Shown in pieces: positions 26,323 to 27,785 of a stretch of DNA of 33,191 nucleotides. The translations under genes and the position numbers were made by a program. A model generated the notes under the pieces. It was not told the DNA's origin. It made no database searches and saw only the letters and a list, made by a program, of their open reading frames with translations. Positions within the stretch are counted from its first letter, which is position 1, and each line of letters opens with the position of its first letter. The stretch is from Kiritimatiellia bacterium (GTDB lineage Bacteria; Verrucomicrobiota; Kiritimatiellia; SS1-B-03-39; UBA6053), in assembly GCA_029936175.1 (NCBI GenBank), contig JAPYUI010000021.1, forward strand, positions 4,458-37,648, read 5' to 3'.

Positions 26323-26598
26323 ATGCCACGTTCAATTAGTAAAGGACCCTATGTCTGTCCGAAACTCCTCAAGAAGGTTGAGAAACAGGCGGGCGGAAAA
26401 AAGCATATCATCAAGACCTGGTCACGCCGGTCGATGATCATTCCGGATTTTGTTGGGCATACCTTTTCCGTGCATAACGGCAAAGTATTCATCAATGTTT
26501 TCGTGACAGAAAACATGGTGGGTCACAAGCTGGGTGAATTCAGCCTGACTCGCGGGTTTAAGCGTCACGGAACAGCCACGGATAAAACCCTTAAGTGA
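26323..26598 (+). CDS. rpsS: 30S ribosomal protein S19
   Basis: 91 residues. S19 binds 16S rRNA in the 30S head with S13. It matches along its length: [68 protein letters not shown]. In nearly all bacteria rplV follows at once; here an unrelated gene comes between. A small GGGG/CCCC hairpin (26601-26613) lies just after the stop. Confidence 0.98.
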
Positions 26599-26632
26599 GC
26601 GGGGTTGTTCCCCACCTTGCGCCCAGGTGATG

Positions 26633-27457
26633 ATGCCAAAGAGTTCTCAGAAGCTTTTCAGCATCCTGCTTGTTGGTGCCCTCCTGGGGGTTTGCCTGCT
26701 TAGTACGATGCAGGCACGTTCTTTGAAGCAACAGATCGCTGGCCTGGAAACGTCCGTTTCCAGGGGGCTGCAGAAGATCGCGGAGCATGTGCCCGTGCTG
26801 GTGACCAATCAGCAGGTGAGGGTGACGGAAACCGCGATCGTAGTGACCAATTTGGTCGTAACCAATGTGCTGGCGGAGGTCCAGGAGACCGATGTCACCA
26901 ATCCGGTGGTTTCGGGTGAAGTTGATTTGAAGGAAGTGGCCGAAATTAAGCTGGTTGCAACGAATATGCACCTGGCGTTGAAAACCAGCCTGATTGAAGC
27001 GGAAGAGGCCCAGACAGCCGTAAAACAGCTTCTGAAGCAGCAGGATAGATTATTGCAGGAAAAGCTGGATTATCAAAAACAAGTCGCTAGGTTGTCCGCT
27101 TCTTTGGCCCGGATGCAGGCCGAGTTTGACCGACAAATGGTCAGAGACGAATCTGCAGAAGTCGGTCCCAGCGTGAGAGTTGCAACGAAATCTAATCGTT
27201 CACTTTTTGATGGTCGGGTAAGTGATTTTCAAGGAGATTTGAACATGGTGATCTTGGATATCGGGGCAGAATCCGGCGTTAAGTCGGGTATGCAGTTCTC
27301 GCTGGTCCAGGAGGGTCAAGGGATAGGAAGAGTACGCGTGATTGATGTGCGCTCAGTCCTGTCCGGCGCGGTGATTGAAATTTTGAAGGACACGGAAAAG
27401 CCCCTGCGAGGCATTCGGGTTATTCCGTATAAAAGCGAAGATTCTGATGGAAGTTAA
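26633..27457 (+). CDS. Membrane-anchored coiled-coil protein of unknown function, inserted in the S10 operon
   Basis: I do not recognise a named family. The 274-residue product has an N-terminal hydrophobic segment (residues 8-25, LFSILLVGALLGVCLLS) that looks like an uncleaved signal anchor; the LGVC is a poor lipobox. Residues ~28-52 and ~112-172 are heptad-rich and probably coiled coil. Between them are repeated VTN/VxNxV segments (57-110). The C-terminus (188-266: DGRVSDFQGDLNMVILDIG, GVKSGMQFSLVQEG, IGRVRVIDVRSVLSGAVIEIL) looks like a small beta domain, a pattern I associate with envelope proteins of PVC bacteria and loosely with MreC. GTG 26627 and ATG 26630 are alternative starts; AGG ends 5 nt before ATG 26633. 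Its last 11 nt overlap rplV, so it is coupled to it. Confidence 0.88.
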   Translation: MPKSSQKLFSILLVGALLGVCLLSTMQARSLKQQIAGLETSVSRGLQKIAEHVPVLVTNQQVRVTETAIVVTNLVVTNVLAEVQETDVTNPVVSGEVDLKEVAEIKLVATNMHLALKTSLIEAEEAQTAVKQLLKQQDRLLQEKLDYQKQVARLSASLARMQAEFDRQMVRDESAEVGPSVRVATKSNRSLFDGRVSDFQGDLNMVILDIGAESGVKSGMQFSLVQEGQGIGRVRVIDVRSVLSGAVIEILKDTEKPLRGIRVIPYKSEDSDGS

Positions 27458-27785
27458 AGCGGTAACAAAATATGCGCGGATTGCGCCCAAGAAGGCACGG
27501 GATCTCGCTCGGGAAATCCAGGGTAGACCGGTCTCTGAAGCGCTGAATATTACTGATTTCAGTGAGCGGAAAGCGGCAAAGCTTTTTGGTAAAACGTTAA
27601 AATCGGCCATTGCCAATGCCGAACACAATAACGGTTTGTCTGCGGAAGACCTGGTGGTCAAACTGGCGGTGGTTGAAGACGGCCCCATTTTACGCCGCGG
27701 CTGGTATGGCGCACGAGGCATGTTCAAGCCGATCGCCAAGCGCACGAGTCACATTCGAATTATTTTAAGCAAAGACGAAGACTAA
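27447..27785 (+). CDS. rplV: 50S ribosomal protein L22
   Basis: 112 residues. L22 extends a beta-hairpin into the exit tunnel, a site of macrolide resistance. It shows VKAVTKYARIAPKKARDLAREIQGRPVSEALNIT, SAIANAEHNNGL and the hairpin GPILRRGWYGARGMFKPIAKRTSHIRIIL. ATG 27447 lies inside the end of the preceding unknown gene, with no separate Shine-Dalgarno apparent, so its translation probably depends on that gene. Confidence 0.97.
   Translation: MEVKAVTKYARIAPKKARDLAREIQGRPVSEALNITDFSERKAAKLFGKTLKSAIANAEHNNGLSAEDLVVKLAVVEDGPILRRGWYGARGMFKPIAKRTSHIRIILSKDED

Follow-up and report, generated by a model that had tools for sequence, protein, structure and literature searches.

A recurrent gene between rpsS and rplV of Verrucomicrobiota encodes a predicted envelope protein

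Introduction

Why does a gene for a predicted envelope protein lie inside the S10 ribosomal operon of a Kiritimatiellia bacterium, and is it there by more than chance? The gene was noticed between rpsS and rplV in a 33,191-nt stretch of contig JAPYUI010000021.1, hereafter the window. This junction is tight: among 54 other named loci, 43 of which are labelled as other phyla, the rpsS–rplV gap is 7–114 nt and no match to the gene was detected. Our literature search, from which subscription papers were largely missing, found no account of a Verrucomicrobiota gene lying between these two. The site, the family and its phylum-wide pattern seem new, whereas secY is already a precedent for an envelope-related gene in a ribosomal operon. 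By keeping an envelope-protein gene at the rpsS–rplV junction, the phylum would offer a naturally occurring link between making the envelope and making ribosomes.

Results

The window gene and its place in the S10 operon

The window gene encodes a protein of 274 residues and is read on the same strand as its neighbours (Table 1). The operon is unbroken around it, in the order rpsJ-rplC-rplD-rplW-rplB-rpsS-[window gene]-rplV-rpsC-rplP-rpmC-rpsQ. The reading frame and the same-strand interruption described in an earlier note on this DNA were both recovered, with a measured gap of 34 nt after the rpsS stop, and so was the overlap of 11 nt with the start of rplV, which is particular to the window genome. 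The start of the gene is uncertain by one or two codons in the upstream direction (GTG 26627, ATG 26630 or ATG 26633). The genome itself (5.04 Mb, estimated to be 86% complete) carries a single strong copy, on the window contig, and a second match that is weak and partial, covers the domain only and lies at a contig end.

Table 1 Features of the window gene and its flanks, with the loci of related genes
Feature	Position	Strand	Basis or remark
rpsS, flank	26323..26598	+	ORF; tblastn
AGGTG, possible Shine-Dalgarno sequence near the window gene start	26625..26629	+	sequence
rplV-linked gene, uncharacterised	26633..27457	+	ORF; homologues directly upstream of rplV; start maybe 26627 or 26630
N-terminal hydrophobic export/anchor segment (about residues 9-26)	26657..26710	+	hydropathy scan
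Long coiled-coil helix (residues 95-176)	26915..27160	+	AF2 model
C-terminal FlgT_C-like beta domain (residues 194-265), common to all homologues	27212..27427	+	alignment, AF2, Foldseek
Overlap of 11 nt, window gene 3' end and rplV start	27447..27457	+	sequence
rplV, flank, partner kept by the gene	27447..27785	+	homologue loci
Relatives of 165-217 aa in the window's family	L116:5201-5698, L117:5190-5714, L118:5821-6474, L119:5604-6134
WNFVVLDIG family, examples	L111:337-1179, L110:5967-6800, L109:6882-7754, others

Conservation at the rplV site

When 39 genomes were searched with the window protein alone, 14 gave matches, its own genome included, and comparison with the rplV positions of the same genomes places the best of these directly upstream of rplV. 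The loci fetched initially have an ORF between rpsS and rplV that stops 1–13 nt before rplV. A single-sequence search of a genome-contig database with the window protein returned no relative because the protein diverges fast, with identities of about 20–30% across families, and profiles and rplV-anchored searches were therefore needed. Profile A2, made of ten homologues from rpsS–rplV loci, matched the gene below E = 1e-20 in 46 of 146 class genomes, which span 17 of the 45 families sampled. All 46 are found immediately before rplV and share its strand, with 4–101 nt between the end of the match and rplV. Five of the next six matches (E 1e-19 to 1e-16) are on a contig other than that of rplV, and the sixth is in a genome without a detected rplV. 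In about two thirds of these 146 genomes the profile search did not place the gene at the site.

The window gene is real and is no one-off insertion. Neither a chance ORF nor an assembly join of two contigs accounts for the arrangement, because dozens of independent genomes have a homologue at this site, some of them within a single contig.

For the phylum as a whole, profile A3 (31 sequences) was used at a threshold of 1e-8 and matched 158 of the 388 genomes searched, a count that includes some copies elsewhere. The gene adjoins rplV in 41 of the 45 outside-class genomes checked, which were picked for having matches and do not form a census; the 41 represent 17 further families. Across the phylum outside the class, the gene is at this site in at least 17 families, Chthoniobacterales among them. 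Among named genomes, 12 loci labelled Spartobacteria or Chthoniobacterales, or grouping there, carry the gene (E 5e-23 to 7e-27), and four further named loci with the gene group with the window's class. It is also found in loci labelled Verrucomicrobiia (L135), Kiritimatiellota (L133) and, as a weak match, Victivallales (L130). The earlier note had taken the gene for more than a passive insertion and proposed a survey of rpsS–rplV neighbourhoods across Verrucomicrobiota, allowing that no relative might have it at this site. The survey clearly answers otherwise: across the phylum a same-strand gene has been kept at this position, recurring directly before rplV, with homologues in many families.

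The gene is absent from loci labelled Opitutaceae, Pedosphaera, Kiritimatiellaceae and others, where the rpsS–rplV gap is 7–23 nt, and from all 43 loci labelled as other phyla, with gaps of 18–82 nt. It was met only in Verrucomicrobiota in this sample, with Planctomycetota and Chlamydiota lying outside it. Since many lineages lack the gene at the site, among them roughly two in three of the class genomes sampled and several named Verrucomicrobia, it must be dispensable or replaceable there.

A MAG labelled Akkermansia muciniphila (L178) is without the gene and has a 16-nt gap, unlike the genus g95 (genomes of 2–3.5 Mb, many species), which carries it.

Descent, selection and broken operons

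In a tree of 103 beta domains, which is based on a short alignment and carries a long-branch warning with the window sequence among the long branches, a single branch with support of 99/93 divides the 80 rplV-linked copies from the other 23. The rplV-linked copies thus form one clade of common descent. In seven close pairs the dN/dS ratio is 0.05–0.49, with six of the seven at or below 0.3, and these values show purifying selection within the pairs. There is strong evidence that the gene is real, vertically inherited and selected.

The window genome keeps its S10 operon whole, unlike the ten other sampled genomes of its family (L056-L065, L068-L077), in which a break in the operon separates rpsS from rplV. 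None of those ten genomes has a copy upstream of rplV, and none was found after rpsS in the stretches read. The family does have relatives of the beta domain at other sites (165–217 aa, motif HYLI/HYVI; Table 1), and a relocation of the gene was considered and rejected: in the tree these shorter genes fall among the copies not linked to rplV, so the rplV-linked gene appears to have been lost from the split operons rather than moved.

A different outcome of operon breakage is seen in G022 and six other loci, in which no rpsS was found over the preceding 2.8–6.9 kb (0.85 kb for L133) and the gene still lies directly before rplV. Because these breaks leave the pair together, rplV is the lasting partner of the gene. 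In G022 (L290:6142-6797) the hydrophobic N-terminal stretch, which bears a lipobox-like motif, is out of frame with the rest of the gene, possibly through a frameshift in the genome or in the assembly.

Export signal and domain layout

The N-terminal segment of the window protein has a mean hydropathy of 2.75 over residues 9–23, and a strongly hydrophobic N-terminal segment is found by the same scan in 73 of 81 homologues, some of the eight exceptions having doubtful starts. Hydropathy thus shows a product predicted to be exported to the cell envelope. The type of segment varies, being anchor-like in the window protein, similar to cleavable signal peptides in many proteins of other classes, and accompanied by lipobox-like motifs in a few homologues, and the property shared by this mixture is therefore export, not anchoring itself. 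The earlier note had proposed a membrane-anchored envelope protein; the envelope location is upheld, and the anchor applies to some members only.

The AF2 model of the window protein (mean pLDDT 72.5) has one long helix at residues 95–176, modelled for the most part with confidence and preceded by shorter helices of low confidence. This pattern supports a coiled coil in the form of one strong helix, not the two equal stretches first suspected. Most homologues have the coiled coil and some lineages lack it; in the latter, forms of 109–123 aa comprise little beyond the signal and the beta domain, which makes the beta domain the core of the family. Predicted at the outset from the sequence, this C-terminal domain folds confidently on its own (pLDDT 87.6, pTM 0.77). 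The VTN-type repeats also described at the outset are indeed present between the anchor and the coil (four VTN and one ATN, residues 57–111, window 26801–26965), and they are absent from the relatives and so peculiar to the window copy.

Fold and nearest known proteins

Profile searches and structure prediction, both suggested in the earlier note, gave a FlgT-like beta fold and no match to a curated family. In Foldseek the C-terminal domain finds FlgT first, with query TM scores of 0.70 and 0.64 (8z5n, 3w1e) and a probability of 1.00, the E values being modest (1.6e-3 at best, and 3.6e-3); the F1-ATPase crown barrels follow with a nearly equal score, and then MreC. With such modest E values and with the crown barrels scoring so close, the fold names no function. 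No curated cut-off was reached in Pfam and NCBIfam scans of the window protein and of the members scanned, yet the family is spread over many families of Verrucomicrobiota. The best match to the Pfam profile FlgT_C (PF16538) has E 0.0089 and 16.9 bits against a cut-off of 27 bits, a profile that 3 of 31 class members match at E<=0.1. Apart from look-alikes of the coiled coil, a sequence search of the PDB gave only one weak match, to MreC (profile search E 0.0027).

FlgT is the periplasmic H-ring protein of the Vibrio flagellar basal body, and its C-terminal domain is the nearest solved fold to that of the window protein. It has other N-terminal and middle domains, where the window protein has a signal/anchor and a coiled coil, and it belongs to a flagellar gene context, whereas the window gene belongs to the S10 operon. 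We do not claim membership in either FlgT or MreC: the predicted fold is similar, while the defining cut-offs are not reached and the gene contexts differ.

Spacing and expression signals

In 29 of the 30 class loci fetched, the stop codon of the gene falls within a narrow range around the rplV start, from 11 nt past it to 16 nt short of it, a spacing that is consistent with translational coupling to rplV. Outside the class, the distance from the stop to rplV is 0 to 124 nt and often more than 30 nt. The + strand has no terminator-like site from rpsS to rplV, and the promoter and terminator predictions were no better than those for shuffled sequences. Ribosomal genes of the window genome show no more codon bias than the background, and codon adaptation therefore says nothing on the expression of the gene. 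Expression of the exported product presumably goes along with that of the ribosomal proteins.

Discussion

Our best reading, which we hold with about equal measures of confidence and doubt, is that the gene product serves as a scaffold or in assembly in the periplasm and is made in a fixed relation to the production of ribosomes. The N-terminal signal or anchor would export the protein to the envelope, the coiled-coil spacer that most members have may form oligomers, and the FlgT_C/MreC-like beta domain, probably facing the periplasm, could bind an envelope partner, the whole acting as a small scaffold or assembly factor. As a cistron of the S10 operon before rplV, the gene is probably transcribed with the ribosomal proteins, and translation of rplV would follow from it; with such co-transcription and coupling, the amount of protein would track ribosome production and growth rate. 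By its position inside a ribosomal operon before rplV, an envelope part may thus be made in step with ribosomes. Transposon and gene-deletion tools are available in the phylum, as PMC12283558 indicates for V. spinosum, so the gene is testable now. A bolder version, to which we incline less, is that an ancestral S10 cistron of Verrucomicrobiota encoded a growth-coupled periplasmic assembly factor without a known counterpart in other bacteria, with envelope building set stoichiometrically by ribosome synthesis; it is tentative.

The protein could instead be a divergent MreC paralogue that acts with MreB in the morphogenesis of cell elongation. The window protein has the same order of anchor, coiled coil and beta domain as MreC, with the coil lost in some homologues, and weak matches to MreC profiles are found in the PDB search and in NCBIfam (E 0.0066, 15.6 bits against a cut-off of 243; E 0.0016 and 0.0017 in two relatives), alongside the Foldseek match (TM 0.53). 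However, no member reaches the curated MreC cut-off, FlgT is structurally closer, and the genome has a separate MreC well above the Pfam cut-off (E 3.1e-40, 139 bits against 28). The linkage to mreB/mreD typical of MreC is also replaced by linkage to rplV, in 46 of 46 class matches below 1e-20, and we regard this identity as unlikely.

An export-machinery factor on the side of Sec, YidC or BAM seems to us no more probable than an MreC paralogue. It would be placed like secY, a known membrane-protein gene within the spc ribosomal operon, and this precedent fits an exported product whose gene sits in a ribosomal operon. Both are membrane- or export-related genes embedded among ribosomal-protein genes, but secY is near-universal, lies elsewhere in the cluster and is unrelated to the window gene by sequence. 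No sequence or fold match to Sec, YidC or BAM components was found, and the gene is absent from many relatives that must still export proteins.

The product may also serve as a regulatory leader, with export or stalling of the nascent chain setting the translation of rplV and later genes, by analogy with SecM and SecA. A signal/anchor segment recognised by hydropathy upstream of rplV recalls the SecM layout, and the stop-start spacing is tight in the class loci noted above. The arrest site of SecM is short and C-terminal, whereas here the last residues vary between lineages and the conserved part is the folded C-terminal domain, across which the low dN/dS points to a working protein; the wider spacing to rplV outside the class also counts against a leader, which we consider highly improbable. 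A neutral or selfish passenger that entered the operon by chance and was then inherited might explain the patchy presence and fast divergence, but it is scarcely credible for a gene under purifying selection that keeps its site through many families and operon breaks, and no mobile-element features were seen near the window copy.

The scaffold or assembly protein that we favour can be set beside the PVC signature protein CT421.2 by description, as CT421.2 is also lineage-restricted in PVC bacteria and without an assigned function (PMC3444138); that paper states no link of CT421.2 to rpsS or rplV and mentions neither S19 nor L22.

A second family of about 275–305 aa, with an anchor, a coiled coil and a related beta domain bearing the motif WNFVVLDIG, occurs widely within the class, many genomes having one or two copies, and is not linked to rplV (Table 1).
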